Part shown: piece after piece, positions 11,692-28,481 of the stretch
Numbering within the stretch: the first letter of the stretch is position 1
How the letters are laid out: the number at the start of each line of letters is the position of its first letter
DNA from: a virus
DNA: 28,481 nucleotides
IMG/VR virus record: IMGVR_UViG_3300035220_000671
Location: 1 to 28,481 of that record
Direction: 5' to 3' (one strand)
Notes under the pieces: model-generated
Database searches by the model: none
Told to the model about the DNA's origin: nothing
The model's input: only the letters and a program-made list of their open reading frames with translations
Program-made: the position numbers and the translations under genes

Positions 11692-12426
11692 TTACACAAA
11701 AGAATTGTGTCTGAATACATATTTAACCCTCTTTTGCCATGAATTATTAAATTCATCCTTACTTGACAAATGAAATGCCCTCTGATGCACAAACTGGTTA
11801 GACCCAGTATACATTCCAACATGAAATATTTTCTCCCCAGCATTAAGTATTAATATATCATGTTTCTTAATGGTTTTATCTTTTATTCTTTTAAATCTTT
11901 TTGTTAATATGCTTATTAAATACTTATTAGCTTCTTCAGCTACACTTGACGGCCAGTAGTTATACTCGCTATAATCATCAACTATACCAGCCTCAAGCAT
12001 AAGGTAGTCTTTTATAGTGCAAACACATTCATAAAACCCAGTAACATAAGGTCTACCATATATATCAGTTGGCTTGTAAGATTTCGGGTAATAAAGATTA
12101 AAATTTTTAAATTCATTACTATATATAAGGTATGGTAAACACATTTCTTCTGAGTTTTTTTTATCAGATTCAGATGGATCAGCAGTTCCAATTGGGTGTG
12201 AATGGTAAACTCCTAAAACATTCTCAGTGTTCAGTATCTTATTAGTTGATATAATAAAAGAATTATTTTTATCTTGGCTTTCATTTATCTCTTTATTAAC
12301 TTGGGCTATTAATAATTTATCTAAAGACACAGTTCCACACACTTCCTCACCTGGAAACGATTCGGCATGTTCTATAATTTCTTTATAAAACTCCTTATTC
12401 TTAAGGTTAAACCTACTTAAAGTCAT
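11692..12426 (-). CDS. K: gpK-like tail assembly protease: JAMM/MPN + NlpC/P60 peptidase
   Basis: A 244-aa protein with the two catalytic domains of lambda gpK. The N-terminal JAMM metallopeptidase has E28 (PGEEVCG) and the full H-x-H-x7-S-x-x-D zinc motif, YHSHPIGTADPSESD (H75, H77, S85, D88). The C-terminal NlpC/P60 domain has the catalytic cysteine at C134 in GFYECVCTIKDYLML, where gpK usually has DCY, and the catalytic histidine at H202 in FHVGMYTGSNQFVHQ. All key residues are present, so it is probably active. Known gpK-family roles are tail-tip assembly and possible peptidoglycan cleavage at DNA entry. The gene starts 14 bp inside the end of the gpL-like gene and ends 18 bp before gpI-J, matching the lambda order L-K-I-J. 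The ATG at 12426 is kept because the JAMM domain begins within 15 residues of it. Confidence 0.93.
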   Translation of the reverse strand: MTLSRFNLKNKEFYKEIIEHAESFPGEEVCGTVSLDKLLIAQVNKEINESQDKNNSFIISTNKILNTENVLGVYHSHPIGTADPSESDKKNSEEMCLPYLIYSNEFKNFNLYYPKSYKPTDIYGRPYVTGFYECVCTIKDYLMLEAGIVDDYSEYNYWPSSVAEEANKYLISILTKRFKRIKDKTIKKHDILILNAGEKIFHVGMYTGSNQFVHQRAFHLSSKDEFNNSWQKRVKYVFRHNSFV

Positions 12427-13483: not shown

Positions 13484-15235
13484 TTATCCTCCATTTTCAT
13501 TAAAAAAATCAATTAAAAAAGACTGATTAGCATATTCTTGTATAGCATCTAGGTCTGTTATCCCTATACTATTTGCATAGTCGCCAGTATCAGGTGAGTA
13601 AATTCCCTCAAATAAACCATCAACCGCCTGGGTTTCGCCAGACACACTGACAGTTTCCTGTATGTATTGCTGAGCCTCTCCTGTTTGCGATGCATAAACC
13701 TCCAAATACTCTTCCTGTCCGCTAATATATGTATCTTGTGAAACTGAATCATAATCAAAATTTTGTGAACCTAAATAAGATATTAAAAGCTGAGGGTCGT
13801 AATCTCCATGAAAATATGTCACACCCGATGTTAATCCAGATGGCATATAATATTCCTTTTCATTAAAACTATAAGTAGAGCAATAACCTGCACCCTCTGT
13901 CTCTGCATAATTTTTAGAAGTATACAATGGATAATATCCAGACACAATCTTAGGCTTTTCAGTAAAACCTTCCCCCATATTATTAAACATTTTTTCGTCA
14001 GATTCTGATATTGCACTAAAGGAGTCCCTAGGAGGCATATCGTAAACTTTATATATATTTCTATAACCCCTGCTTGTAGGCAGGTAGGTGTATTCTCTTT
14101 TTAATTTCCTTCTCCTACCAGAAACTTTAGAAGGACCTCCAAGCCCAATATGCCATTCCATACACTTCCCTAGTCTATTTTTCTGCTGAGTATATTCTGA
14201 TAAAATTTTAATATCATCAGATACTCCATAGTAATATAATTGATAAAATATAGAGGACTTTAAACCTAGTGGTAGCTTTGTTGAGATATTACTTACGACC
14301 GCATTATCACTCAAGGAATCATTCCACAAAAACTGCCTCATAGATCCATCCCAATTTTTATCAAGAAATGCCCTAATTGCATCAATAAAACATTGATCCC
14401 TATTTTTACCGTTTGAAAACTCATCTTCTATATTACAGTTTTCATTTATTTTAAATATACTATTCCATTCATCTATTAATTTATCCTCAGTTTCCCCACC
14501 AACAAAGAACGGCAATATTTCTTGAGGTTTCTTGTTTATTTCAGAAGGGTCACCAATTATATTTGTTTCATATCCATAGTCTGGTACCCCAGTTGATGTT
14601 ATATCGTTTTCTAATTCTATTTCAAAGAAACACCCATTTAACTCTGAAGAAAATATATTAAATCTAGCTATGCCCCCATTACTTGTGTCTAAATTTTCGA
14701 TATCAATAAAAGGCAAGGTATCGTTAGGTGAAATTAAACTTGATATTTTAATTCCGCCAGACACGTTCCACTCTTCTTTAAAAATATCTTCAGGTATAAT
14801 TGAGTTACCAGATTCAAGACCCTCCATGGATACGTCGTATAAATTACTCTCATCTTCCTTTAGCTCCCCAGTTACGATACTCATCCCCATTGACCCAGAG
14901 TAAAAATGCGAACCCACAGGCATTCTATATTTATCTTCTATAATCTCAGAAGAAGAACTCGAACATATACTATCTCCTGGAATAAAACTTAACCCGCTTG
15001 GGTAGGCCAGGTTGTCAGCAAACAATGAATCTACCTGTTTTTCTTCTTTTAACTTGTACGAACTTCTCGAGACCTCATAAATGTAATCGGACTTAGTTAG
15101 GTAATTAATTATTCCAGTTCCGTCAATATTTCTCACTATCAAAGAAGAGCTTGAACCTGGATCCATAGCTACCCTAAGCCTAATATTATCATTATTAGGG
15201 TTCAAGCTACCAGAGTTAAAATTGTATTTATTCAT
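13484..15235 (-). CDS. Virion protein of unknown fold, between polyglycine protein and gpL
   Basis: A 583-aa acidic, Ser/Asn/Tyr-rich protein starting at the ATG of an ATGA junction with the polyglycine gene; the Shine-Dalgarno is weak. I do not recognise the first 400 residues. They include SYxYEVSRSS near 50-60, a Ser run (ICSSSSSE, about 90-97) and a helical segment near 265-325 (DQCFIDAIRAFLDKNWDGSM). Residues 434-480 hold a distinctive motif, YYPLYTSKNYAETEGAG...EKEYYMPSGLTSG...YFHGDYD, which resembles the YPLYT...YYMP-G...HG-x-Y short module I associate with structural proteins of marine phages; this is a recollection, not a search. The C-terminus is acidic. Its position inside the tail-tip operon, four genes after gpM and just before gpL, argues for a structural or adhesive role. 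No catalytic motif is seen. Confidence 0.55.
   Translation of the reverse strand: MNKYNFNSGSLNPNNDNIRLRVAMDPGSSSSLIVRNIDGTGIINYLTKSDYIYEVSRSSYKLKEEKQVDSLFADNLAYPSGLSFIPGDSICSSSSSEIIEDKYRMPVGSHFYSGSMGMSIVTGELKEDESNLYDVSMEGLESGNSIIPEDIFKEEWNVSGGIKISSLISPNDTLPFIDIENLDTSNGGIARFNIFSSELNGCFFEIELENDITSTGVPDYGYETNIIGDPSEINKKPQEILPFFVGGETEDKLIDEWNSIFKINENCNIEDEFSNGKNRDQCFIDAIRAFLDKNWDGSMRQFLWNDSLSDNAVVSNISTKLPLGLKSSIFYQLYYYGVSDDIKILSEYTQQKNRLGKCMEWHIGLGGPSKVSGRRRKLKREYTYLPTSRGYRNIYKVYDMPPRDSFSAISESDEKMFNNMGEGFTEKPKIVSGYYPLYTSKNYAETEGAGYCSTYSFNEKEYYMPSGLTSGVTYFHGDYDPQLLISYLGSQNFDYDSVSQDTYISGQEEYLEVYASQTGEAQQYIQETVSVSGETQAVDGLFEGIYSPDTGDYANSIGITDLDAIQEYANQSFLIDFFNENGG
13488..13492 (-). promoter_or_regulatory. 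Strong ribosome-binding site of the gpL-like gene
   Basis: GGAGG on the minus strand, 7 nt before the ATG at 13480, lying within the last codons of the upstream 583-aa gene. It is the best Shine-Dalgarno among the tail-block starts, most of which rely on overlapping stop/start codons. gpL may therefore start independently of upstream translation. Confidence 0.75.
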
Positions 15236-16464
15236 TCTAACTCTAACGTTAATTCATGAACCCCAGGTGTGGAAAATACATGAACATGATATCCATTATG
15301 CACTCCATAAGATCCTCCGAATTTTAATTTAGGGAAGCCGCCAGAAGCTTCCATTTTATACCTAATTACTGCTGCCCCAGGAGCTCCATTAGAGTGATCT
15401 AATGTTCTGTGCTCAGGCTGAGTTCCAGAGTATCCTCCAGTTCCCGCATTACTAGGCAATAATCCATTCCACCAACTACCAACCATCGATGATGGCGGAG
15501 TTCTAACTGTATACCCTTGTAGAGCGTAGCTTGAAGCATATACTGCACCAGGTTTTCCCGCCCTCAATTTCTTACTACTTATAGGGAATTGTGTCGCGTA
15601 CCTATCATTTATACCACTCATTCCTCCGCTAGCTCCACGGGAATGGTTCGATGGCGCTCCATCTCCACCTAAAATTCCAGCACCTCCTCCACCTCCTCCA
15701 GGACCATCCCCAAAGTTAATAAAACCTGTACCTCCATAATTATTCCTACCAACATCAATATTGATAAAATCTGGATCGTCACCGCCTCCACCTGGGTATG
15801 CGGGAAGTTCCCTCCTTCCAGTTCCTCCAGCACCAGCACCAGCAGCAGCTATAGCGGTCCACTTACGACTACCGAATTTTGGTTTTCTGTAAAACCCAAG
15901 ATAAGTTGCAGAGCCGCCGCCCCCGCCTGCCCCACTTGAGCCCCTACCTCCAGCATGACCCCCCGTTCCTCCGTAAAAATTATAGTTATATAGGCTTTCT
16001 CCCCCTACGCCTCCTGTAGTTGTATGGCTCCTGCCTCCATTGTTAAGTCCTCCTTTACCCCCCGAACCTATAACAAATGCCCACCTAATATCGTCTGTTA
16101 AATTTATTACAAAAGAATATTGAGAACCAGAACCTCCAGGAGCTCCATTACCATCATCCCCTCCTCCTCCTCCGCCTCCAGCGCCTAATATCATAACATC
16201 CACGTCTAGTTGACTAGGCTTTTCCTGTATGTCTAGTATATTTAATTGAATCTTTTTTTCAAAGGTGTTGTTTCTTTCATCGGTGACCCTTAACCTAACT
16301 GTTACGAAAGGGCTTGTCATCGCGCTGTATGCTTCATAATCTATAGGAACCCTAGTTCTTAAACTAGTATACCCTTGAGCATCTCGCTTTAAAATAAATA
16401 AATAATTTCCACTATCTCCATCCCCAGAGCAAAACTCATATTTATATTTGTATGTATTTGTCAT
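15232..16464 (-). CDS. Cadherin-like + polyglycine adhesin, tail fibre type
   Basis: A 410-aa protein. Residues 8-80 resemble a cadherin repeat: YLFILKRDAQGYTSLRTRVP then IDYEA, FVTVRLRVTDERNN (V-x-x-x-D) and the closing LNILDIQEKP (D-x-x-E-x-P), the family's calcium-binding end motif. Residues 88-370 form a glycine-rich domain (DVMILGAGGGGGGGDDGNG, repeated GG/GGG runs at 94-102, 179-184, 225-228 and 255-261) that ends with GAPGAAVIRYK, the usual closing strand of this domain type. Polyglycine-run domains form the receptor-binding tips of some phage adhesins such as T-even gp38. After it, residues 371-410 (GYHVHVFSTPGVHELTLELE) look like the opening strands of another glycine-rich unit that is then cut short. 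The gene has no clear Shine-Dalgarno and its stop overlaps the next ATG. Likely role: surface-exposed adhesion. Confidence 0.75.
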   Translation of the reverse strand: MTNTYKYKYEFCSGDGDSGNYLFILKRDAQGYTSLRTRVPIDYEAYSAMTSPFVTVRLRVTDERNNTFEKKIQLNILDIQEKPSQLDVDVMILGAGGGGGGGDDGNGAPGGSGSQYSFVINLTDDIRWAFVIGSGGKGGLNNGGRSHTTTGGVGGESLYNYNFYGGTGGHAGGRGSSGAGGGGGSATYLGFYRKPKFGSRKWTAIAAAGAGAGGTGRRELPAYPGGGGDDPDFINIDVGRNNYGGTGFINFGDGPGGGGGGAGILGGDGAPSNHSRGASGGMSGINDRYATQFPISSKKLRAGKPGAVYASSYALQGYTVRTPPSSMVGSWWNGLLPSNAGTGGYSGTQPEHRTLDHSNGAPGAAVIRYKMEASGGFPKLKFGGSYGVHNGYHVHVFSTPGVHELTLELE

Positions 16465-16469
16465 TTTAT

Positions 16470-17837
16470 TTAATTGCTATTCAGATACCCAACCCTATAA
16501 ACCTCTTCTTCTCTAACCTGAGTAACTGGAACCCCTCCGTTTGCAGGACTCCTACTCATTAAAGTAATGTCTGTTGGGGGGGAGTAAGGTTGTGTTTCTA
16601 ATTCTATATTACTTCTTGAGAAACAAAAACTGGTACTAGAGAAGTCGCCCCATTCTGATATAAATATTGCATGCTCTTGTCTGCCATCTTGTAAAATTTC
16701 TCTATTAAAAAATACACCAACATCATTAATAAAAGGACCACCCTCATCACAACTAACTTCTATCCTCATACCTGTGTATAGTTCCTCTTCATACTTAAGT
16801 ACGACATATTCCCCCCTGTACATTCCTGTAACATCCCACATTCTATCATTAGCTGTTAAACTATCATCACTATCTCTATTAGTTTTGATGCTATTAACGA
16901 TAAGACTATTCAATAGATTATTGTAACTACTAGAGGTAAAATTACCTTTCCTAAACGTCTCAATACCCATATACATACTTACATCTGGGGGATCCCTAGG
17001 GTCATAGTATTCTTCGCACACAGATAATGATAAATTCTGCAAAGATGTATATTCATCATAAGATGCTTCTCTAGTTTCCGTATATATACCCGAAGTTATA
17101 ATACAGTCGCTAGCCTCTATTTCACCAACAGGATTAACAGAGCAGCCATAAACACCTCTATAATTTGATATATTCGCCAATGGAGACCTGTTAAGCTCAG
17201 TACATAAAAGCTCTCCACTTAAAAGATAGAAAGAGTCACAGGGGTCGGTACCCTCACAACCCAAAATGGGAAAACCTGGATAAAAACCAATCCTCGCAGA
17301 CCATGAATCTCCCGTTCTATTTTCATAAGACCCAGCGTTTCCATCTTCTATCTCTACTCTTGATGGATGGAAGAAGCTAGGTATTTTGAATTTAGTATAA
17401 GGAGCTACAGTGAAAGGTAAATCCTCACAAATACCAGAATGGTAAAAACCAATCCCTCTATATTTTTCATCAAATATAGTAAACCTAGTTGGGTCTGAAT
17501 TACTAAGCCCAGTCACAGTTATAGATTCTGTACATACATTGACTATTTCAACAAATTTTCCACGATCCGTAGTCTGCACTGGCTCATTACATGGGAATGA
17601 TATATCAGTAGTCTCACAATCCTCCATGTAAATCATTTTTGGGAAACCCTTAGCGGCATCCCTCAACTGTATATCCGCCTCAAAAGGGTCTATCTGACCA
17701 TCTGTTAAAACTAATTTATTTCTAGTTAACTGACCTAATTCAACTCCAGTTTCCTGAAGTAACCCACCGCAGTTATCATAATATGTCTCCCCGCTGTATG
17801 CTAAGCATATTTGGTTTTCATTATTTATAATGCTCAT
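16470..17837 (-). CDS. Cysteine-rich tail protein with ASH/Ig-like domain
   Basis: A 455-aa protein with 14 cysteines, unusual for a phage structural protein. Residues 93-213 resemble the ASH (ASPM-SPD2-Hydin) type of Ig domain: FVEIVNVCTESITVTGLSNS, then DPTRFTIFDE, PFTVAPYTKFKIPSFFHPSR (141-160), SWSARIGFYPGFPI and DSFYLLSGELLC (201-212). This follows the family's order of N-x-x-x-x-x-L-x-I-x-x-I, F, L-x-P-G-x-x-x-x-x-V-x-F-x-P, and a closing L-x-G. Residues 260-455 are a second beta-rich region that I do not recognise, with RMWDVTGMYRGEYVVLKYEE and FISEWGDFSSTSFCFSR. The N-terminus has CLAYSGETYYDNCGG. It lies 6 bp after the vWA gene and 5 bp before the polyglycine gene. The role is probably structural or adhesive; no enzyme motif is seen. 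Confidence 0.6.
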   Translation of the reverse strand: MSIINNENQICLAYSGETYYDNCGGLLQETGVELGQLTRNKLVLTDGQIDPFEADIQLRDAAKGFPKMIYMEDCETTDISFPCNEPVQTTDRGKFVEIVNVCTESITVTGLSNSDPTRFTIFDEKYRGIGFYHSGICEDLPFTVAPYTKFKIPSFFHPSRVEIEDGNAGSYENRTGDSWSARIGFYPGFPILGCEGTDPCDSFYLLSGELLCTELNRSPLANISNYRGVYGCSVNPVGEIEASDCIITSGIYTETREASYDEYTSLQNLSLSVCEEYYDPRDPPDVSMYMGIETFRKGNFTSSSYNNLLNSLIVNSIKTNRDSDDSLTANDRMWDVTGMYRGEYVVLKYEEELYTGMRIEVSCDEGGPFINDVGVFFNREILQDGRQEHAIFISEWGDFSSTSFCFSRSNIELETQPYSPPTDITLMSRSPANGGVPVTQVREEEVYRVGYLNSN

Positions 17838-17843
17838 AACTTA

Positions 17844-20588
17844 TTAAACCCTACTAATGGTTACTGGTTTACTATTTATACCTATCCAGTTAGTTCCCTT
17901 CCCAGGGTCATCTGGGGTAGGCCCCTTAGTCGCGTCAACCAGATCAGCCCATGTCGTATTCATTGAATACCAAGCTCCATGAGAGTTTTTTAATGCAGAC
18001 TTAAAATCATTACCTTCTCCCACTGAGGTATCCTCTAGATCTGGGTCTATATTAAAGTTAAACTGCAAGCATGTATATGTTGCATCTACTACCCCAAGAG
18101 TTTGATTTCCAGCCGTAGGGTGCTGGGCTGAATAAGACAAAGACCTACCATTTACAGTGAATCCTGGAGGGGGAGGCTCTGCCCCAGATGCAGCAGTCCT
18201 AGGCCCTAAAATTAAATAAAATTCTTTTGTATTTATATTAAAAAATACAGTAGCAGAAGAATAAGATGTTGTTGTCCCAGGTGCCCCTACTGGTGCAGCA
18301 TATGCATTCTTAGCTGCAAGAGAAGAGGGGGTCAGGGTTCCTGTTATACCCGAACCTGGGTCAACTATAGTATTTGTTAAGCCACTAACAAACCCAGAGC
18401 AATCAAAATCTTTAAGATCAAAATTCATCGAAGCGACAACACTAGTGATAGCTTTAGTAGGATCAGAGCCATCTATTTCGCCTTTATTATTGTAAGTTGG
18501 TGCAGCCTCTGCTTTGTCTGGAATATTTATAGTAATCTTGGCGGTATTATGAATGTAAGCTGGATCATTAAATTCAATCTCCCATGTGCCACCCATTGGC
18601 ATATCTACCTCATCTCCTCCGTCGTCATCAACTGGGGGCAAACTAAGCTCTGTATCAAAAGGAACAAATAAGTCATAGCCTTGCTTGAAGACTTCCTTGG
18701 ATGGCCTAAATATAGGGCATATTAAATTAAAATCTACATTAGCGAAGCATCCCATTTTATTCATGGTTTTATCTTCTGAGTTTACAAATAATTGAACCTT
18801 CTCAAGCAATGCATCATAACTAATAAGATCCTGACTTGCGTCTAAAGATTCCCCAACTCTTACTCCAAAAAATAAATCTATTTCCCCACCTCTTTCTATT
18901 CTCGGTAAGTGTGAATAGTCCCCCATATAACCATTTTCCTCAACAGCGTTTCCTATGTTATAGTCTATAATTTCAAAACCCGTAGATTCAGACTTGAATA
19001 CCCTCACAGGCATTCCCTTAAATGCCACACCATCATTTTTTACACCCTTACTTTCTTTCCATTGACTTGCCCAGCCTCCATCTATATTAAATATTTTGCC
19101 CCTCCTGTATACCTCATACTTTGTGTTAAATGATTGCCATAATATATTATAGTTACTATTTATGTCTTCATATAGATCGGCATTTTCTTGATCTCCATAG
19201 AACTGCCCCCCTCTGCCTGCGAGGAGCGCATTATTCCTAGCCCCTATTATATCATCGGGGTCATCATTAACAGTTGCCTCAAATGCTAATCCAATGTCTT
19301 GTATATTATCCCTGTCAACTAGAAGTTCGGCTCCAGACTCTTCCCCAGCTTTCACTTTCCCGTAATCAAACGATCCATCCTCATTAGCAGTTAATGTTTC
19401 TATATTATATAAGTCATTTCCCTTAGGGATTCCAGACTTTAAAAACTCAGTAGTGTATTTTGTGGAGCCTACATAAGGTATAGATCTTTCATCTTCTGGG
19501 GTATCATCCGAATCATTCTCAAAGTTAACGATAGTATTCAACAAAGTAACCTCATGCGGTCCGCAATTATGTAGGGTTATTGAAAATACATTCTCAAATC
19601 CATTATCATAAGATATTCTATCTACTATATTAACTAAACCCAGTATCCTATTAAACTGGCCAGCTGAACTGTCATTCACTACATCAAAAAACCCCATAGG
19701 GTTCATTGGTCTCTGCTCGAAATCAAAGGCATATTCTTTACACTTTTTAGAAACCCCCCTTGATCTACTCCCCACACCCATAAAAAACGCAGCAGTCTTC
19801 ACGGGTTGACCAAACCATAAGCTCTTATTAGCACCGTTATACCTTACAGGTTTTCTGTCTTCGCTCAGTAATTGATTCCCCTTTAGCTCTATATCTAACG
19901 GCCTCCTCATTGATAATAAATTATTAGGCTTTAATAAATTGCACAATTCCACAGCGTCTTTATTCCTAGGTGTAAACCCATCTCCTATATAAAACAAGAA
20001 TCTCTTAAGAACCTGCTTAGATCTAGGTCCAAAAAACATCTCATAAAGAGCCATCCTTGTTGAGTGTAAATAATCCTTCTCTCTTGTAGTCCCAAATCCA
20101 TTTTTAATTTTTTCGTACAAATAATGCCTATCAAAACAATCTGGGTAATTCAAAATACTTGACATAACCTCAGAATCTTCTTTAGACGAAATCTTCACAA
20201 CTCCAATATTTAACTTTTGGCTTTCTATCTTAACACTAAACCTCCTTAAATAACCTATAGGCATGGACTCGAGTTCAGCCTGAGTCATCGAAGATCCGTC
20301 TGGATTAGTACCCCAAGGTGGCATCTTTTCTGTGTGATTAATAGCTGGAGTACTTACGGAAGAAAAACCGTAGTTCTCTGTACCTGGCATAACCTCGCAG
20401 TCATGCAGTGTTGTTATTTTTTTAATTGAATCATTAATTACATCTATTTTTTTAAACATCTTAACGCCAGTTTCTGTAGGCACTTTTATTTTATCATTCA
20501 TTGATGTTGATGCATCTATCAAGAATATAAGGTCTATTTGGTTATCCCTTATGTAAAATAGATCGTCGTACTGTCTTGGGGTAGTCAT
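17844..20588 (-). CDS. von Willebrand factor A-domain tail protein
   Basis: A 914-aa protein. The ATG at 20588 is chosen because it overlaps the upstream stop as ATGA and has AAGGTGAGG 8 nt upstream; a TTG at 20627 would add 13 residues but has no support. Residues 15-225 form a vWA domain. They carry the MIDAS metal motif D-x-S-x-S in LIFLIDASTSMND (D25, S27, S29), a plausible threonine in NGFGTTREKD (T167/T168) and a plausible aspartate in FLFYIGDGFTP (D203). A long insert separates the first strand from the rest. The remaining 690 residues are beta-rich with no match I recognise; an aspartate run (PPVDDDGGDE) lies in the middle, and the last third has Pro/Ala/Ser/Thr-rich stretches. vWA domains bind ligands through a divalent metal, so a tail-tip protein that contacts another tail protein or a host surface protein is likely. 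It sits in the M-to-L cassette. Confidence 0.8.
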   Translation of the reverse strand: MTTPRQYDDLFYIRDNQIDLIFLIDASTSMNDKIKVPTETGVKMFKKIDVINDSIKKITTLHDCEVMPGTENYGFSSVSTPAINHTEKMPPWGTNPDGSSMTQAELESMPIGYLRRFSVKIESQKLNIGVVKISSKEDSEVMSSILNYPDCFDRHYLYEKIKNGFGTTREKDYLHSTRMALYEMFFGPRSKQVLKRFLFYIGDGFTPRNKDAVELCNLLKPNNLLSMRRPLDIELKGNQLLSEDRKPVRYNGANKSLWFGQPVKTAAFFMGVGSRSRGVSKKCKEYAFDFEQRPMNPMGFFDVVNDSSAGQFNRILGLVNIVDRISYDNGFENVFSITLHNCGPHEVTLLNTIVNFENDSDDTPEDERSIPYVGSTKYTTEFLKSGIPKGNDLYNIETLTANEDGSFDYGKVKAGEESGAELLVDRDNIQDIGLAFEATVNDDPDDIIGARNNALLAGRGGQFYGDQENADLYEDINSNYNILWQSFNTKYEVYRRGKIFNIDGGWASQWKESKGVKNDGVAFKGMPVRVFKSESTGFEIIDYNIGNAVEENGYMGDYSHLPRIERGGEIDLFFGVRVGESLDASQDLISYDALLEKVQLFVNSEDKTMNKMGCFANVDFNLICPIFRPSKEVFKQGYDLFVPFDTELSLPPVDDDGGDEVDMPMGGTWEIEFNDPAYIHNTAKITINIPDKAEAAPTYNNKGEIDGSDPTKAITSVVASMNFDLKDFDCSGFVSGLTNTIVDPGSGITGTLTPSSLAAKNAYAAPVGAPGTTTSYSSATVFFNINTKEFYLILGPRTAASGAEPPPPGFTVNGRSLSYSAQHPTAGNQTLGVVDATYTCLQFNFNIDPDLEDTSVGEGNDFKSALKNSHGAWYSMNTTWADLVDATKGPTPDDPGKGTNWIGINSKPVTISRV

Positions 20589-23500
20589 CCTAGATACCTC
20601 ACCTTTATAGATCCTATTTCTCGCCAACTATTCTTAGCCCATTTCACATTACTTTGCTTTAATCCCTTCCAATAAAGCCAAGACTTATCTCTTACTACTG
20701 GCAGGTAAGCTTGGTTTCCACTATTTTCAGACTTAGTTGCAGTCCATACACCTTGAACCCCTACACCTAGCTCAAATTGATAATCAAATTCATAAACGGA
20801 TCTCTCTAATATTTGATCCCACAAGGTAAATCTATCAGGCAACTCCACCCAATAATTATTATATATAAGAGCTGGCCCCATTACATTCAGAACTAGATTC
20901 CCCTGATAGTTTTCCTGATCATACATCTCTACCTGAGTTAAAGGTCCGATAGAAATTGACTCAAGTTTACCTTTTTGCCGAGAAACCTCATCCTCAGGCT
21001 CACTTGAAACGGACAAGATATTTGGAATAACTATAGAAGCTACAGGGTACTCCCCTGGACCAACTAAATTAGAAAATTGATCCTGAACAAATGCCTGAGA
21101 AGTGCATGGTCCATTCTTGATTACCCCACCATACTGTTTTTTATTATTCACTATACCAGCAGCGTATTCGTGCTCCAAATCATAAAAATTATCCTGTATC
21201 GCTAACGACGAGAAGTGAACACCCAATGTAGATGGTCTAGGTGGCGGAGAGTACGGAAGAATTGAACCACCTCTAAAATAGCTAGCCCTAGTATATGCAG
21301 CTTCAAGGGTGGAGGAAAGAACACATAAACTATGAGAGGTTATTGGATTGTATATTTCCGCCCCATAACACGTCCCTTCCTCAGGCTGCCCTACTCCAAA
21401 TACAGACCTAAGATCTTCGGGGATAGATGTTGCGGATTCTATAAACGATGCTGTTATAGTGTTATTATTCTTGTACACATTAGTGTGACTCCAACTAGGG
21501 CAGTAAAATATAGAAGCAGAAGGAGTACTCCCCGTAGTTTGATGATCTAAATCTTTCCCATATGGCCTAGGCATCTGGAACCTAAACTTCTTGTAGCCTA
21601 AATGTGCCTCAAGGAAGAGTAGAATTTCCTTAGCCTCCTTATCACTCCTCTGGTAAAAAGAAACATTAAATGTAGATAAGTTTTGATTTATGGATCTTTT
21701 CGTATACTTTTTATATACTTTTGTGAACTGCGTCTGTAAGTTTTTAGGAGAATGCTCTATTGAGAACGCTTGAGAAGGCTTAAAGTCAAAACTCCTAACC
21801 TTAAGGAATTGGTAAGAAACAATCTCATCTGGATCATTTATGTATATACTAGACCTGCCATATATCGCTGGTATATGTAAATTAAAATCTTCGCTTACGG
21901 TAAAATCACTAGTCGGTTCTAAAGTTACAGAAGTTGTACTTGCACTTATCTCGTTTAGTATCTTTACCTTTCTGTAGTTTTTAAGAAAAACTTCTCTTGG
22001 CCTAGTGTTCCCATTTGAGTCTTGTGTTACTTCTTTTATTGAAGTAACCTCTGACGGTATAGTTGGCTGACTAGACACACAGTCACTAGGACACCTCGAA
22101 AGTCTAATCAAAGAGTAAGGTATCTCTGAGTCCTCTATGTCTTCATACACGGTTTCTATTTCATCTAAAGGAAAAGGGTCTATTATTACAGTGTTTCTTT
22201 TATCATCCACAACTAGCCCTTGGCCCACTCTGCTAGCAGCCCCAGGTGAAACTATTGTTGGCCACTCAACAGGGTCTTTACTGAAACCCCCATCTTCCTC
22301 CAATATGCCTGTGAACATATACCTCCTGGCATCTATTCTACTTTGTATTTGTATGTTTCCTGAATTAAATATCGAACCTTGGTTTGGGGGTTTAACCTCA
22401 AGGAACATGCAGGTTTTTGTTGCTATAACATAATCCTTTTTAAATTCTATTACTCCGCCCACCATAGGTAAAGTCTCATCTTCTGGGTATCTAGATATCC
22501 TTTTTACTATTTTCCTCAACTGCACGTTACCAGTTGTATTACTATCTATAGCATTGCTTTCTGAGTCGAATTTCTCCTCATTTGCCGCATCTAAACTAAA
22601 AAGATTAAACTCCCTAGCCTCTCCCTTTCTTAGTTCGACTTCAGCATCTACTGACACAGGAATTATTGCGTCTATTTTTCTATTATAACCAAAGTGACTA
22701 TCAACACTTTCTATCGTACTCTCCGTGTTACACAAAAATGTAGCTGCAATATTATTATTATTTCTATACGACTTTTCGTGCGCAAACTTTAAGCAAGTAT
22801 ACCTCAAATCTTTCTTATAAGGATATGAATATTCAAATTTAAATTTAGAAACCTCATTAGACAATAATCTTTCCCCTTTATAGTTTATAGAAAACATAGA
22901 GTCATATGGGAAGAATTTTTCCTGCAAGAAATGAAGTATTGATTTAGCTTCTTGATCAGTCCTGTTTTCAAATTTCAAACTCAACTCCATAGGTAGGCAA
23001 TTTATCGCCCTATTAGTTACCTGATCATAACCTTCTCCCATTTTTACTATTTCGTTTTGTGCTGCGAAACTTGCAGTAGACCCATAACTAGGTCTCCAGA
23101 AAAAATGTTGATCCCATACATCTTTAGATAAAGACCCATTAGGAGAAAACATAACTGAGGAATTATGATCTTTTTTGCAATAAAAAAAACTAGACAAATT
23201 ATAACAGCCTGGCTTTTTAAATATTAATCCTCCAGATTTTAAACCAGCAACCACAATGTAAACCCTTCCAGTAACAGCATCTTCTGGTATAAGATTATCT
23301 GGTATGTCAACTTGAGCGTACAAGAAATCCCTATGACTCAAGTCTTCCATAGCTACCATTCTGTAATACTCCCTTACATTAGTGTTTCTTACTTGTTTAT
23401 TTTTTAAATTATAAAACTTAACACCTATACCCACCCCTATACTTTCTTCTAAATCTATTTCATCCGCCCCTATCGTATTTAATTTCTCCTCTATAATAGT

Positions 23501-23833
23501 GACATAATCATCGTTAGATTCAGTTTGCTCTGAGGATTTTTTGATCATGCATTTTGCAGTGTATCCAAAACTAGGGTTAAGATCAAAGTCGAAACCTAAT
23601 TGCCTCTCTAAATTATTACTAACATCTGCATTCTCGTCATAATCAAATGTTATAGCATAACCCTCATCGTCATTAATGAAATTGAAAGGTTGCATTTTTG
23701 ATATATAATCGTCCGCAGCTAGGGTTCCCTTTAGTGAATCATCATCAGGAAACGCGAGGTTTGCAGTATGAACTATGTCGTGCTTTTTATACGCCCTGGA
23801 TTGCTCCCACTGCTCTGGTACTGGAATATCCAT
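20585..23833 (-). CDS. Double gpM-like minor tail protein
   Basis: A 1082-aa protein, about ten times lambda gpM (109 aa), placed where M belongs in the H-M-L order. It has two gpM-type (phage minor tail) domains. The first is at about 250-370: VKMGEGYDQVTNRAINCLPM, RTDQEAKSILHFLQEKF, then the closing NNNNIAATF. The second is at about 690-800: TKRSINQNLSTFNVSFYQRS, DKEAKEILLFLEAHLGYKKF (731-750), RFQMPRPYG, then NNNTITASFIES. Lambda gpM shows the same FGDGYEQ...FLDRHAG...F-x-W-x-P-P order. The N-terminus (QWEQSRAYKKHDIVHT, 8-23) has a Y-x-x-HDIV motif like the Y-x-x-GDIV modules in gpJ and gpL. The rest is beta-rich and not recognised. The gene starts at a TAATG junction with the 402-aa gene. 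Likely role: the first ring of the tail tip after the tube. Confidence 0.8.
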   Translation of the reverse strand: MDIPVPEQWEQSRAYKKHDIVHTANLAFPDDDSLKGTLAADDYISKMQPFNFINDDEGYAITFDYDENADVSNNLERQLGFDFDLNPSFGYTAKCMIKKSSEQTESNDDYVTIIEEKLNTIGADEIDLEESIGVGIGVKFYNLKNKQVRNTNVREYYRMVAMEDLSHRDFLYAQVDIPDNLIPEDAVTGRVYIVVAGLKSGGLIFKKPGCYNLSSFFYCKKDHNSSVMFSPNGSLSKDVWDQHFFWRPSYGSTASFAAQNEIVKMGEGYDQVTNRAINCLPMELSLKFENRTDQEAKSILHFLQEKFFPYDSMFSINYKGERLLSNEVSKFKFEYSYPYKKDLRYTCLKFAHEKSYRNNNNIAATFLCNTESTIESVDSHFGYNRKIDAIIPVSVDAEVELRKGEAREFNLFSLDAANEEKFDSESNAIDSNTTGNVQLRKIVKRISRYPEDETLPMVGGVIEFKKDYVIATKTCMFLEVKPPNQGSIFNSGNIQIQSRIDARRYMFTGILEEDGGFSKDPVEWPTIVSPGAASRVGQGLVVDDKRNTVIIDPFPLDEIETVYEDIEDSEIPYSLIRLSRCPSDCVSSQPTIPSEVTSIKEVTQDSNGNTRPREVFLKNYRKVKILNEISASTTSVTLEPTSDFTVSEDFNLHIPAIYGRSSIYINDPDEIVSYQFLKVRSFDFKPSQAFSIEHSPKNLQTQFTKVYKKYTKRSINQNLSTFNVSFYQRSDKEAKEILLFLEAHLGYKKFRFQMPRPYGKDLDHQTTGSTPSASIFYCPSWSHTNVYKNNNTITASFIESATSIPEDLRSVFGVGQPEEGTCYGAEIYNPITSHSLCVLSSTLEAAYTRASYFRGGSILPYSPPPRPSTLGVHFSSLAIQDNFYDLEHEYAAGIVNNKKQYGGVIKNGPCTSQAFVQDQFSNLVGPGEYPVASIVIPNILSVSSEPEDEVSRQKGKLESISIGPLTQVEMYDQENYQGNLVLNVMGPALIYNNYWVELPDRFTLWDQILERSVYEFDYQFELGVGVQGVWTATKSENSGNQAYLPVVRDKSWLYWKGLKQSNVKWAKNSWREIGSIKVRYLG
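20597..20605 (-). promoter_or_regulatory. Ribosome-binding site fixing the vWA protein start
   Basis: AAGGTGAGG on the minus strand, 8 nt before the ATG at 20588. Together with the ATGA overlap at 20588-20585 it decides the ATG over the TTG at 20627. Confidence 0.7.
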
Positions 23834-25041
23834 TATCTATAAGATTGCTTTATGCTCGCTCTTCCCTTTAGATAACCTTGATCACTAACAGAAAGATTAT
23901 CTGAATCAACCACACCATAACTTTCAAGAAGTTGCATTTCCTTTGTTTGCTCTGGGTATACTACATTGCCTATCAACCTGAACTCCCCAAGTAGACCCTG
24001 GTTATTATCTGTAAATTCTTTACTAAAACCTATGTCTGAAAGTTTTACATTAAGGTCTGCTCTTTGCCCTGTTATCTGTAAGTAAGGGTCTAGCTTTTCC
24101 CCCATTATTTGAGCCGTAATGTCTATAGATTGTTTATTTACCCTTACTGGAACCTCTCCCCCTTCACCCATATTCCCACTGGCATCTATTTCGTATGTCG
24201 GCACTCTTTCCACAGAAACAGTGTAGGTAAAATCCAAAGGATACTCCATACCTATATTCTCAATTCCCTCAATCTTGGTACCAACTGCATGTGGTACCGT
24301 TATCTGCTCTCTTCTAGTGGAATAATATCCATTCTCAAATAAATCCTGAGAAATACCTGACTGATAATCCAGGGTTCCAAATATATCTATAGAAACCCTA
24401 GCCTCTATTATCTCATAAGGCCTAGCACTAAAAGAAAGTTCTCTTATATATGCATCGTTAAACTTATAATCCCCTAGAGATCCAGTTATTTTACCCTCAT
24501 GAACCTGGGGATATACCTCTTTATTAATTAATCCAGTTATATTGAAAAAAGAATGAACATTCCCAGTATTCATGTAGTAGCTTATGCTTAAATTACCTCT
24601 TGCTCCGTTTTCAGCCGCATAATGCCTAACTACGTCCACCTCTCCAAACTCTATATCATTATTATAACTTAGCAGGGTCTCACCAGTAGATCTAACTCTT
24701 ACATGATAGTCTCCTGGGTGCAAATCTTCCGTGAGGACTAATGACTGCTCTGACGGGAATGATATTTTAGCCCCAGCCCTAATCACTTCAATAGATTCAG
24801 GAACTTTGTATGCTGGACCGTCTTTAGGTCCTAGAGTAAAGCCACTCTCCATAGCTTCTGGAAAATAAACATCCCCAGTTTGCATGGCTAAAGATACCTT
24901 ATAGTCGTCGTCAAATTTCTTAGAGTTTATTTGCTGGGAAACACCTATACTTGCATTATTAGCAAATATAAATGTAGGATCCTCTCCTTCATGTGCCAAC
25001 AGCAAAGGCACATCTTCATATCTAACAAAAGGCTTACTCAT
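23833..25041 (-). CDS. Tail protein, beta-rich (similar to its upstream neighbour)
   Basis: A 402-aa protein between tape measure and gpM, starting at the ATG of an ATGA junction with only a weak ribosome site (AAGAG next to the ATG). It is beta-predicted, with no signal peptide or membrane segment. Segments such as DAYIRELSFSARPYEIIEAR with DIFGTLDY, and LDFTYTVSVERVP...VNKQSIDITAQIMGEKLDPY with SDIGFS...GEFRLIGN, follow the same order as segments of the neighbouring 339-aa protein (NGYINSHSISCSVGQVPTTS, then TNFTIEVDEYDYGRLRSYLI, then EARLIGETV). This suggests that the pair are distant paralogues. The layout resembles tail-tube-type or distal-tail structural proteins, but I cannot name a family. 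A role at the tube-to-tip junction is likely from gene order. Confidence 0.55.
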   Translation of the reverse strand: MSKPFVRYEDVPLLLAHEGEDPTFIFANNASIGVSQQINSKKFDDDYKVSLAMQTGDVYFPEAMESGFTLGPKDGPAYKVPESIEVIRAGAKISFPSEQSLVLTEDLHPGDYHVRVRSTGETLLSYNNDIEFGEVDVVRHYAAENGARGNLSISYYMNTGNVHSFFNITGLINKEVYPQVHEGKITGSLGDYKFNDAYIRELSFSARPYEIIEARVSIDIFGTLDYQSGISQDLFENGYYSTRREQITVPHAVGTKIEGIENIGMEYPLDFTYTVSVERVPTYEIDASGNMGEGGEVPVRVNKQSIDITAQIMGEKLDPYLQITGQRADLNVKLSDIGFSKEFTDNNQGLLGEFRLIGNVVYPEQTKEMQLLESYGVVDSDNLSVSDQGYLKGRASIKQSYR

Positions 25042-26057
25042 CTCTTATTATAATAAGAATTATACGACAAATTTACAGTTAATCTTCCATCGGTAGATGC
25101 GTTAACAGTTTCCCCGATCAGCCTTGCTTCTTTAATTATATAGTGCTCTATCTTCTCTCCAAAGCAATCATTTATCCTTACAGCTATATCCTCTAGTGTG
25201 GGGGATATTAAATAACTCCTCAATCTTCCGTAATCATACTCATCTACCTCTATTGTAAAGTTAGTTGTAGTAGTAACTGGCCATCTTACATCGACTTGAG
25301 TACACTCGGAGGAACCTACTGTATATATAGCTTCTGTTGGTATATTAATACTGTGTTGAAAATTAGTAACCCTATTAGTTTTTGCACCCCTGCATTCGAC
25401 TATTATCGAACCATGGTTAGGTACCCTTATGTCTGGAAAAGGATTACTGCCAGATGCATTGTAACCCTTAAGACCCATACTAGTTTCTTCAGCTATCGCA
25501 AACCCATTGTCTTGCCTTATTATTCCTTCTTCGTTTTCTATTTTAAAAAAATCAGGATTACCACCTATGTCGCCGTATACAGATATACTCGTAGATGTTG
25601 TTGGTACCTGCCCCACCGAACAAGAAATACTATGACTGTTTATGTATCCATTATAAAAACCAAAGTAATGACTATTATGATGCATGCTTCCAGTAAAAGG
25701 ATTATCTCCAGTAAAATTAAGCATAAAGTCTTCACTAACTAAGACAGAATTAATCGAAAAGGAACCCTCAAGAGGAGAATTAACGACAGCCAGACTTTTA
25801 GGCATAACCGACCTACTAGTAAATCCGTTCTCATCTAGAACAAATCCCTCGTTTCTTACTGGTTCTTCATTTTCTACAAAACCATCAGGTTCTAATGTAG
25901 GTTGAAGATCGTTAAAGTTTTGATTTACATGCCCCCACCCAATTACATTGATTGGTTTTTCCTGAATAGCATACGACCCATCTATAGACTGAACTCCTGA
26001 TAACTGAGTTCCGTTTATAAAGAATTGTTTTTCATATCCAAGTATTGCCTGTTTCAT
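25038..26057 (-). CDS. Tail protein, beta-rich, possibly tail-tube-like
   Basis: A 339-aa protein directly after the tape measure gene. The ATG at 26057 is preferred: it forms TGATG with the tape measure stop and follows a purine-rich GGGGGAGAG about 10 nt upstream. A TTG at 26060 would add one residue. It begins MKQAILGYEKQFFINGTQLS, then GVQSIDGSYAI, and contains INSHSISCSVGQVPTTSTSI with SVYGDIGG (about 140-167), a pattern that resembles tube-type proteins where a central strand pair precedes P-x-x-S-x-S. The C-terminal half ends EARLIGETVNASTDGRLTVN with LSYNSYY. Its neighbour appears to be a distant paralogue. No catalytic motif is seen. A structural role near the tail tip is the safest call. 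Confidence 0.55.
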   Translation of the reverse strand: MKQAILGYEKQFFINGTQLSGVQSIDGSYAIQEKPINVIGWGHVNQNFNDLQPTLEPDGFVENEEPVRNEGFVLDENGFTSRSVMPKSLAVVNSPLEGSFSINSVLVSEDFMLNFTGDNPFTGSMHHNSHYFGFYNGYINSHSISCSVGQVPTTSTSISVYGDIGGNPDFFKIENEEGIIRQDNGFAIAEETSMGLKGYNASGSNPFPDIRVPNHGSIIVECRGAKTNRVTNFQHSINIPTEAIYTVGSSECTQVDVRWPVTTTTNFTIEVDEYDYGRLRSYLISPTLEDIAVRINDCFGEKIEHYIIKEARLIGETVNASTDGRLTVNLSYNSYYNKR

Positions 26058-28481
26058 CAACTAAGCTCTCCCCCTACTCTTTTTTCTTGCTTTATAACAT
26101 CAAGTACGGCAGCTTTAATCTTGGATGATAATTCTTTTTCTTTTGCATACGAAGATTCGCTACCTTGAGTATCATTAGAGCTACTAGACGATTCTCCTCC
26201 AGATTTATCTATTGTAACATTTACATTTATATTATTCGTAACTGCACCTTTTGACGAACTAGAACCCAAACCAGCATCTACTGAATCTGGCTGCGGTGAT
26301 AGCCCTGGTGACTGCCTGGTACCACCCGAACCTCCTACAGCCATTGATGTAGATGGGTATGTTAGTCCTTGATCTACTATCCCTCCATCGTAATAACCTT
26401 TTGAAGCCCTCCTAAACCCTTCTGGATTTTGAGAAGCAAACCTCATCATGTTGGGGTTATTTCTAGACAACTTCTCTGTGGAGGATTTCCTTAACACGAA
26501 GTCTCCGCTGTTTAGAGAAACTGGACCAACATTATCTATTCCTCCTTTACCTTGTACTATCGGGAAATCTCCCGTAGTATTCATTTGATTTAAATTTTCA
26601 TACCCTATTCTGCTTGCTACATTTCCAGGTATTACAGTTTCACCTTTCGTGAGCATAGCTGGAACTTGCCCGCCAGAATTGTATCCAAACCCGCCTTTAT
26701 CCTTAAATTCACCCTTAGATTTATAGAAATCAATAAGCTTTTGTTTGCCTGCTTTGTCTTTTATTTTTTGTTCCTTAGATTTCCTACCAAAGAAACCGTC
26801 AAAGAAACTTCCACTATCTCCGCTTGGTCTAGCGGCTTTATTTGCTCCAAATGTGCCTGTCCTATCTTTACTAGAACGGAAAGCATCTTTTGGGTTAAGG
26901 AATGCCCCAAAATTTGAACCCCCTTTAACTTCATCAAAGCTGGAGTAGTCTATTTCACTAACATCAACACCTTTAGCTAATTGAGATTTGTTAAACCTAG
27001 CAACCTCTGAGTAGTTTACATTTTTTTCAGCTGCTTTTAACTGTTGATATGCGGCTACATTCTCTTTTTTGCCTAGACCCATTTTTCCTTGAACAAAATT
27101 CTGAGTACCCGTCTTTAATGCTTGAGCACCAAGAGCTATTCCTTGGGTTGCGGCTCCCGCAGCCATACCTACGAATGTTCCAAGATACCCCTGTAGCTTA
27201 CCCATTTTCTCTGAGAATTTTTGGTTTGTTTTATCTGTATCATAGTCAGATAAATCTTTTAAGTAGCTTTTGTAATCTTGAGATACTTTATTGCCAGCTT
27301 GAAACCTAGAACTCAACCTCCTATCATTAGAGTTCATATTTACGTCTGAATCTAAACCTAATGTATTAAATCTTTTCATATCGAACGTGGGTCGTCCGTC
27401 TTCTTGGTTTTCATCTCCACCCATCCATTTGTCCACCAAATAGGAGCCAGCCACACCACCAGCCAGTCCAGCTATACCATCAACCCCTGCCCTGGTTCTT
27501 TCACCAGCCTTAGTTCTACCCCCTTTATTATACCTTGATACCGTATCTTTTGGTATCACATACTCTCCAGCTTCAAGCAAAGCAGGGACTTCTCCTCCTT
27601 TTCCGAAATTTTTAACTAGCCCTCCTTGATGGTATTTTTGAATCTTCCCGCCTTCGTATTCTGTTATTGGTTTGATAGTAGGAGTAGGAGTAGTAGCGGC
27701 CATGTCTAGCATCTTGGCTAATTTTTTGGAAGCTATTTCAAGATCTTTTAATGATTGAGCGGCTTTAGCTCCTCCTTCCGCTTCAAGTTCTGTAGTTTTC
27801 TTGACTGCTTCTTTATATACCAAAATTGCTCTAGCAGTTTCCATTATTTTGTCATTTGCATTATACCCACTAGTAATGTTAGTTGCCAATTGGGATTCTT
27901 TTACACCTACATCATGTAAGCCACTTTTACCAATACGCTCGCTCTTTTCCCTTAATTTAACACGATTACCTCCTGTCTCAAAGTATTTACCATCTCTATA
28001 AACTCCAAGTTCCTTTAATGTACCAATCCGTCTTTTTAATTGTTGTTGATCAACAAGGTCCTTATTCCTAGTTCCTTTTTTTGTTACTCCAGACATTGTA
28101 ACATCATATGCATTGTCTCCAAATTTTAGCATGTCCTTAAAACCTGAAATCTTTTTCTCTGCTACTGAGGCAAAAGATGCATGGTCAAATGATTTTTCAG
28201 CTTGGGGTGGAAACGCAGGAACAGGCGGCGGTATGGCTTCTTTTGCTTTTGCTTTTGCTGCTGCTCTTGCTATCACTGCTTCCTCTGTTGCTTCTTTTGA
28301 AGCAAGTTCACTAGCTTTACCTTCTATAGCTGTAGTTAATTTCTCTGTAGCATCTTTATTATTAAGGAGAGCTATGTTATTACTTTTTAGTAATGTATCC
28401 CAAATACTTTTATCTCCAAGTGTATCTTGTATTATTTTCCTAAAGCTAGCCCCTCCATTTTCAAATCCTACAGAAATTACA
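26057..28481 (-). CDS. H: Tail tape measure protein, C-terminal part (5'-partial)
   Basis: The frame stays open to the window edge, so at least 807 residues are visible and the true start lies outside; a GTG at 28276 is not needed as a start. The sequence shows an Ala/Lys-rich helical stretch followed by Pro (IPPPVPAFPPQ), long Lys/Glu/Ala helices, two hydrophobic Gly/Ala segments (DGIAGLAGGVAGSYLVDKWM and YLGTFVGMAAGAATQGIALG), and repeats of GGxVPAxLxxGExVIP. Such repeats are typical of the C-terminal part of many phage tape measures. The end is Ser-rich and then helical (ELSSKIKAAVLDVIKQEKRV). Tape measures set tail length and are ejected with the DNA; the hydrophobic segments fit passage through the membrane. 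Its position at the head of the gpM-L-K-I-J series supports the call. Confidence 0.82.
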   Translation of the reverse strand, partial: VISVGFENGGASFRKIIQDTLGDKSIWDTLLKSNNIALLNNKDATEKLTTAIEGKASELASKEATEEAVIARAAAKAKAKEAIPPPVPAFPPQAEKSFDHASFASVAEKKISGFKDMLKFGDNAYDVTMSGVTKKGTRNKDLVDQQQLKRRIGTLKELGVYRDGKYFETGGNRVKLREKSERIGKSGLHDVGVKESQLATNITSGYNANDKIMETARAILVYKEAVKKTTELEAEGGAKAAQSLKDLEIASKKLAKMLDMAATTPTPTIKPITEYEGGKIQKYHQGGLVKNFGKGGEVPALLEAGEYVIPKDTVSRYNKGGRTKAGERTRAGVDGIAGLAGGVAGSYLVDKWMGGDENQEDGRPTFDMKRFNTLGLDSDVNMNSNDRRLSSRFQAGNKVSQDYKSYLKDLSDYDTDKTNQKFSEKMGKLQGYLGTFVGMAAGAATQGIALGAQALKTGTQNFVQGKMGLGKKENVAAYQQLKAAEKNVNYSEVARFNKSQLAKGVDVSEIDYSSFDEVKGGSNFGAFLNPKDAFRSSKDRTGTFGANKAARPSGDSGSFFDGFFGRKSKEQKIKDKAGKQKLIDFYKSKGEFKDKGGFGYNSGGQVPAMLTKGETVIPGNVASRIGYENLNQMNTTGDFPIVQGKGGIDNVGPVSLNSGDFVLRKSSTEKLSRNNPNMMRFASQNPEGFRRASKGYYDGGIVDQGLTYPSTSMAVGGSGGTRQSPGLSPQPDSVDAGLGSSSSKGAVTNNINVNVTIDKSGGESSSSSNDTQGSESSYAKEKELSSKIKAAVLDVIKQEKRVGGELS
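26627..26674 (-). repeat. Tape measure GGxVPA...GExVIP repeat, copy 2
   Basis: Encodes GGQVPAMLTKGETVIP, followed by GNVASRIG. A third, degenerate copy (GGIDNVGPVSLNSGDFVLRK) is at 26486-26545. Confidence 0.75.
27551..27598 (-). repeat. Tape measure GGxVPA...GExVIP repeat, copy 1
   Basis: Encodes GGEVPALLEAGEYVIP, followed by VSRYNKGG. Copies 1 and 2 are about 0.93 kb apart and agree at most positions in protein sequence. Confidence 0.75.

Follow-up and report, generated by a model that had tools for sequence, protein, structure and literature searches.

Four genes between the gpM-type and gpL-type genes of an uncultured lambda-like phage may encode an adhesive, exchangeable part of the tail tip

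Lambda-like phages are expected to carry the gene of the distal tail protein gpM directly before that of the hub protein gpL. What, then, do four genes that lie between the two in a metagenomic relative contribute to its tail tip? The question is raised by IMG/VR record IMGVR_UViG_3300035220_000671, analysed here over positions 1 to 28,481 (28,481 bases, the window), in which four contiguous genes at 13484-20588 on the minus strand separate a gpM-type gene (M) from a gpL-type gene (L). A sequence-only reading of the window had placed four genes there in near-contiguous order, and all four open reading frames (ORFs) were found as it had placed them. As the best explanation, with a probability of about 0.6, the four genes encode the outward-facing part of an elaborated tail tip that is centred on the gpM-type distal tail protein (Dit) and bears exchangeable adhesive modules. 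As judged from sequence, the set probably grips host cells. The genes concerned are:

20585-23833, minus strand: M, gpM-type distal tail protein, 1082 aa, PF05939
17844-20588, minus strand: vWA protein, 914 aa
16470-17837, minus strand: Cys protein, 455 aa
15232-16464, minus strand: Gly protein, 410 aa
13484-15235, minus strand: g583 protein, 583 aa
12413-13480, minus strand: L, gpL-type hub protein, 355 aa, PF05100

Both flanking proteins were identified with Pfam, M by PF05939 (E 9.5e-19, 68.2 bits against a curated cut-off of 39) and L by PF05100 (E 1.8e-48). M overlaps the vWA gene, and Gly overlaps g583, by 4 nucleotides (nt); the remaining genes are separated by 6 nt (vWA to Cys), 5 nt (Cys to Gly) and 3 nt (g583 to L). 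The most likely start of the vWA gene is the ATG at 20588, which is preferred because the starts of its relatives align there; a TTG at 20627 is a longer alternative.

Relatives were gathered as IMG/VR contigs of up to 200 kb from searches with L, M, vWA and g583. Overlapping loci were merged and the contig regions annotated with profiles, and 25 contigs hold both M and L. A vWA region follows the M core in every one of them; in 22 the two share a chain, and in the other 3, all of the window's own clade, vWA has a gene to itself. Across the interval from M to L, Cys is present in 25 of 25 contigs, g583 in 17 and the Gly gene in 3, all of the window clade. The four-gene order is repeated in the relatives L003 and L004. 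In a further relative, L002, identity to the window is 84% for L, 74% for M, 67% for vWA, 65% for Cys, 57% for g583 and 51% for Gly; in this comparison the accessory genes diverge faster than L. By these alignments, with 51–67% identity in L002 and the order repeated in L003 and L004, the four-gene set is far more than a chance arrangement. The sequence-only reading had proposed looking for the same order in metagenomic phages, where it proved to be conserved, and the genes are not scattered elsewhere in the relatives. That reading had also described an inserted cassette of about 7 kb. The four genes do stand between M and L, but not as one dropped-in unit: this idea is weakened because 22 of 25 contigs encode vWA within M, every contig has Cys, some lack g583, and Gly belongs to one clade. 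The gene order of the relatives rules out foreign insertion of the four as a single unit.

Many of the contigs are near copies, and the L tree holds 19 distinct proteins. The vWA state is known for 17 of these records, fused in 14 and separate in 3, one of which is the window, and the separate-vWA lineages form one supported clade. The tree favours neither a fusion-first nor a split-first history of M and vWA because its base lacks resolution and the outgroup branches are long. In the distant relatives L043-L048, M is short and has a single Dit fold, and neither vWA nor Cys was detectable. A search for vWA and M relatives among 50,697 phage records gave no match, the vWA profile found no confirmed relative in bacterial and archaeal genomes, and a capsid-like protein of a 200-kb relative had no match in phages.

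In the M protein the Phage_min_tail (PF05939) fold occurs twice, at about residues 243-306 and 681-799 (E 1.2e-13 and 8.4e-9 for the two matches), and the M profile reaches the lambda gpM structure 8iyk (E 0.0023). Residues 846-1082 form a C-terminal domain that is kept in the window clade and has a weak match in two relatives. Lambda gpM is a six-copy distal tail ring on the three-fold gpL/gpJ hub (PMC10721106). Three M chains of two folds each could, we infer, supply six Dit folds and build a six-fold ring of this lambda type on a three-fold hub. The vWA protein, whose counterpart in most relatives is the C-terminal half of M, would then occur in three copies around the M ring, with Cys as a constant component of the ring and hub neighbourhood. 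The g583 and Gly proteins would be accessory, the outer domain of Gly being exchanged and the C-terminus of g583 variable. Such a set would bind a polymer or protein on the host surface reversibly and multivalently, ahead of receptor engagement by gpJ.

Three regions can be distinguished in the vWA protein: the vWA domain at about residues 15-330, a conserved middle to about residue 620 and a clade-specific C-terminus. AlphaFold confidence is moderate to good over about residues 15-330, where the predicted local distance difference test (pLDDT) score is about 75-90 for most residues, and low over most of the remainder. With VIA-align residues 14-329 of the predicted model were placed on the vWA domain of human ANTXR2, with 170 residues aligned (Z 17.8, root-mean-square deviation 2.1 Å), and Foldseek agrees on the vWA fold with a probability of 1.00. 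Pfam VWA matches 11 of 21 family members at E <= 1 (best E 1.9e-4), the window's own protein being without a match. The vWA profile had only non-significant matches among PDB sequences, and vWA-named matches in a viral structure library were weak or marginal. The predicted model, its structural alignments and the Pfam matches of family members support the Rossmann-like vWA fold that had been claimed from the sequence.

A metal ion-dependent adhesion site (MIDAS), also claimed from the sequence, could be retained in part. The window protein has the DASTS and GDG elements, and over 21 aligned rows the loop-1 Asp25 is found in 20, Ser29 in 19 and the loop-3 Asp203 in all 21. Nevertheless, no conserved loop-2 Thr was seen across these rows, the loop-1 Ser/Thr is less conserved than the loop-1 and loop-3 Asp, and the relative L006/L025 has lost the loop-1 Asp. 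On this alignment the site appears incomplete and variable, and a working metal site is not supported.

The Gly protein begins with an N-terminal module of about 85 aa, cadherin-like by eye and shared in the clade, followed by a glycine-rich domain for which Gly_rich_2 (PF21722) scores below its cut-off in the window (21.0 against 24.3 bits, E 3.7e-4). The cadherin assignment was not borne out, as PF00028 has no match in the window and a sub-threshold match in the relative L004 only (14.5 bits against a cut-off of 28.8, E 0.047). In L003 and L004 a PA14-like outer domain (E 1.8e-8 in L004) replaces the glycine-rich part behind the same N-terminal module. Other relatives have SprB-repeat proteins after M-vWA (L033 and L075) or, in L092, a protein with collagen and carbohydrate-binding module (CBM) 5/12 matches between g583 and L and a LamG-like domain on the chain that ends Cys-like. 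From these domain matches, outer domains are swapped between relatives. Scanning of the proteins in the relatives' slot found no enzyme families, and no significant enzyme family was found in the four genes, in agreement with the sequence-only reading. A module of about 65 aa recurs in M, Cys, g583 and, in the 200-kb relative, a fibre-like protein. Large fibre-like proteins are clustered in this relative (L119:765-10166), distant from the tail genes.

In the Cys protein the N-terminal half is conserved, with Cys83, Cys102, Cys200 and Cys212 invariant and Cys194 present in 19 of 21 members. Cys194, Cys200 and Cys212 lie together in a conserved group that may bind a metal or form a disulphide. 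An ASH-like character had been suggested for this protein; matches in single relatives (choice_anch_D, E 0.24, and Cep192_D4, E 0.02, one member each) leave a marginal ASH/Ig-like signal in the family, but the window protein has no ASH or choice-of-anchor D match. The g583 protein has a conserved core (residues 1-407) and a clade-specific C-terminal extension. No family and no known fold was found for g583: Foldseek returned no match at E 0.001 for a low-confidence model (pLDDT 56.5), a result that does not amount to evidence of a new fold. Matches of g583 relatives to the Pfam families ACR9 (E 0.004) and Toxin-deaminase (E 0.075) are sub-threshold and were taken as noise. The Cys and g583 profiles gave non-significant matches only among PDB sequences, and profile comparison of five pairs among Cys, g583, vWA and M found no homology.

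Several points weigh against an adhesive tail tip. All members are known from genes and predicted models alone, and the Cys and g583 proteins are without an assigned fold. The window's vWA protein is a separate polypeptide, so that its attachment to M is deduced from the fused relatives. Canonical adhesion by a metal mechanism, as far as the alignment tells, cannot be general because the MIDAS is incomplete and the loop-1 Asp is lost in a relative. The accessory domains could also serve assembly or fibre docking rather than host binding. By analogy with T5 p132, a fibre-docking collar is the main rival, in which vWA and Cys on the M ring would anchor side tail fibres and fibres encoded elsewhere would bind the host. 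The fibre-like cluster of the 200-kb relative (L119) lies away from its tail genes, one protein of the cluster has the module of about 65 aa in common with Cys, and what stays constant across the relatives is Cys and the M-vWA junction. Nevertheless, a collar leaves the PA14, glycine-rich, SprB, collagen/CBM and LamG domains at the slot unexplained, and we regard it as a serious but unlikely alternative.

The metal-dependent adhesion apparatus of the sequence-only reading, with MIDAS and cadherin-type calcium acting together, is improbable. The vWA fold and the well-kept loop-1 and loop-3 Asp (20 and 21 of 21) speak for it, but the loop-1 Ser/Thr varies, no loop-2 Thr was seen to be conserved, one member has lost the loop-1 Asp, and the cadherin signal is sub-threshold and limited to one clade. 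It is equally doubtful that a Dit-borne, integrin-like vWA domain acts as a metal- or force-tuned gripping element in three copies around the hub; if true, phages would have a principle of adhesion of which the literature searched, a partial library, gives no description. A role of vWA, Cys and g583 in tail-tip assembly without receptor binding is very unlikely. Its precedent comes from jumbo phages, in which vWA cochaperones paired with MoxR ATPases have been proposed to act in virion assembly (PMC7824862), but the window yielded no gene for an AAA+ partner, and the relatives in which vWA is fused to a structural ring protein suggest that it belongs to the virion. In the same partial library nothing was found on vWA with distal tail proteins, and the vWA papers found concern other roles.

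How unusual the interval is can be gauged from eleven isolate genomes inspected around L, in several of which M was recognised from its annotation and position only. L directly follows M in nine (lambda, SSU5, T1, ST13-OXA48phi12.3, S-H1, RHph_Y2_11, VPBES, JP1 and BR141a). The adjacency assumed for lambda-like phages accordingly stands for these nine but not for the other two: Pseudomonas phage ZQG1 has an SGNH hydrolase gene between M and L, and Stenotrophomonas phage CUB19 has a tailspike and further genes there. The M-L junction is therefore already a site for surface-type proteins in other phages.

The neighbouring genes complete a lambda-like tail module. On the minus strand the order is the end of a tape-measure-like protein, g340, g402, M, vWA, Cys, Gly, g583, L, K, I-J and g798; the tape-measure-like protein was named by eye from its position and repeats, and only its end lies in the window. 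The further features are:

25038-26060, minus strand: g340, conserved, between tape measure and M
23833-25041, minus strand: g402, conserved, between tape measure and M
11692-12426, minus strand: gpK-type protein, Prok-JAB and NlpC/P60
6049-11673, minus strand: gpI-like N-terminus fused to a gpJ-type central fibre, one ORF, 1874 aa
2-3688, plus strand: two glycosyltransferase-like genes and p278

The lambda order of tape measure, M and L is broken twice, by g340 and g402 before M and by the four genes before L. The earlier picture of the tip genes omitted g340 and g402, neither of which is found in lambda. Comparison of g340, g402 and M gave no support for paralogy. The g340 gene also adjoins the single-domain M of distant relatives. 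L has five invariant cysteines (173, 183, 276, 297 and 304) and Cys302 in 18 of 19 proteins; it exceeds lambda gpL in length, and an internal insertion precedes the later of its conserved cysteines (276-304). The gpI-gpJ ORF has sub-threshold matches to CBM5/12 and C-type lectin. Homologues of p278 and GT2 adjoin tail genes in several relatives.

Compared with the lambda tail tip, the window has M, L, K and I-J homologues in the same order and conserved gpL cysteines; it differs in the two Dit folds per M chain, the four M-L genes, the two extra proteins before M, the fused I-J and the longer L. ZQG1 and CUB19 likewise place extra, probably surface-acting proteins at the M-L junction, but their annotated products, by which alone they were compared, are others, one of them an enzyme. 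The vWA adhesins (ANTXR2, integrin I domains and the SpaC pilus adhesin) share the vWA fold and part of the MIDAS motif, whereas the window protein has about 10-16% identity to them, an incomplete MIDAS and a tail-tip context. The T5 collar protein p132 is also an accessory protein bound at the Dit ring, where it links the T5 fibres to the ring; it is likened to the window proteins by role alone.

The closest parallel to an adhesive, Dit-centred tip is provided by the evolved Dits of siphophages, which carry binding modules and bind hosts (PMC7291167). In these Dits, the loops of the peripheral galectin domain carry the inserted CBMs (PMC7291167). As in those of Gram-positive siphophages, extra binding-type domains are associated with a Dit ring protein beside tape-measure and hub genes. 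The Dit chain itself has no extra binding-type domain in the window, where vWA is separate, but has one in 22 of 25 relatives. The window differs in that its vWA stands at the C-terminal side of a duplicated gpM-type Dit, as a separate gene with Cys and g583 as companions. The tip had been thought an undescribed multi-protein complex; it does appear to be a multi-protein tail-tip set, but Dit-borne adhesion platforms are already known (PMC7291167). In a widespread lineage of uncultured phages, lambda-type Dit proteins, which are plain in lambda, would be able to bear large adhesive extensions. A structural hypothesis follows directly from the relatives in which M and vWA are fused, and the outer domains that are exchanged are candidate host-range determinants in phages without an isolate. 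Rather than an unrelated invention, the tail tip of the window is a more elaborate form of a kind of phage adhesion device already known.
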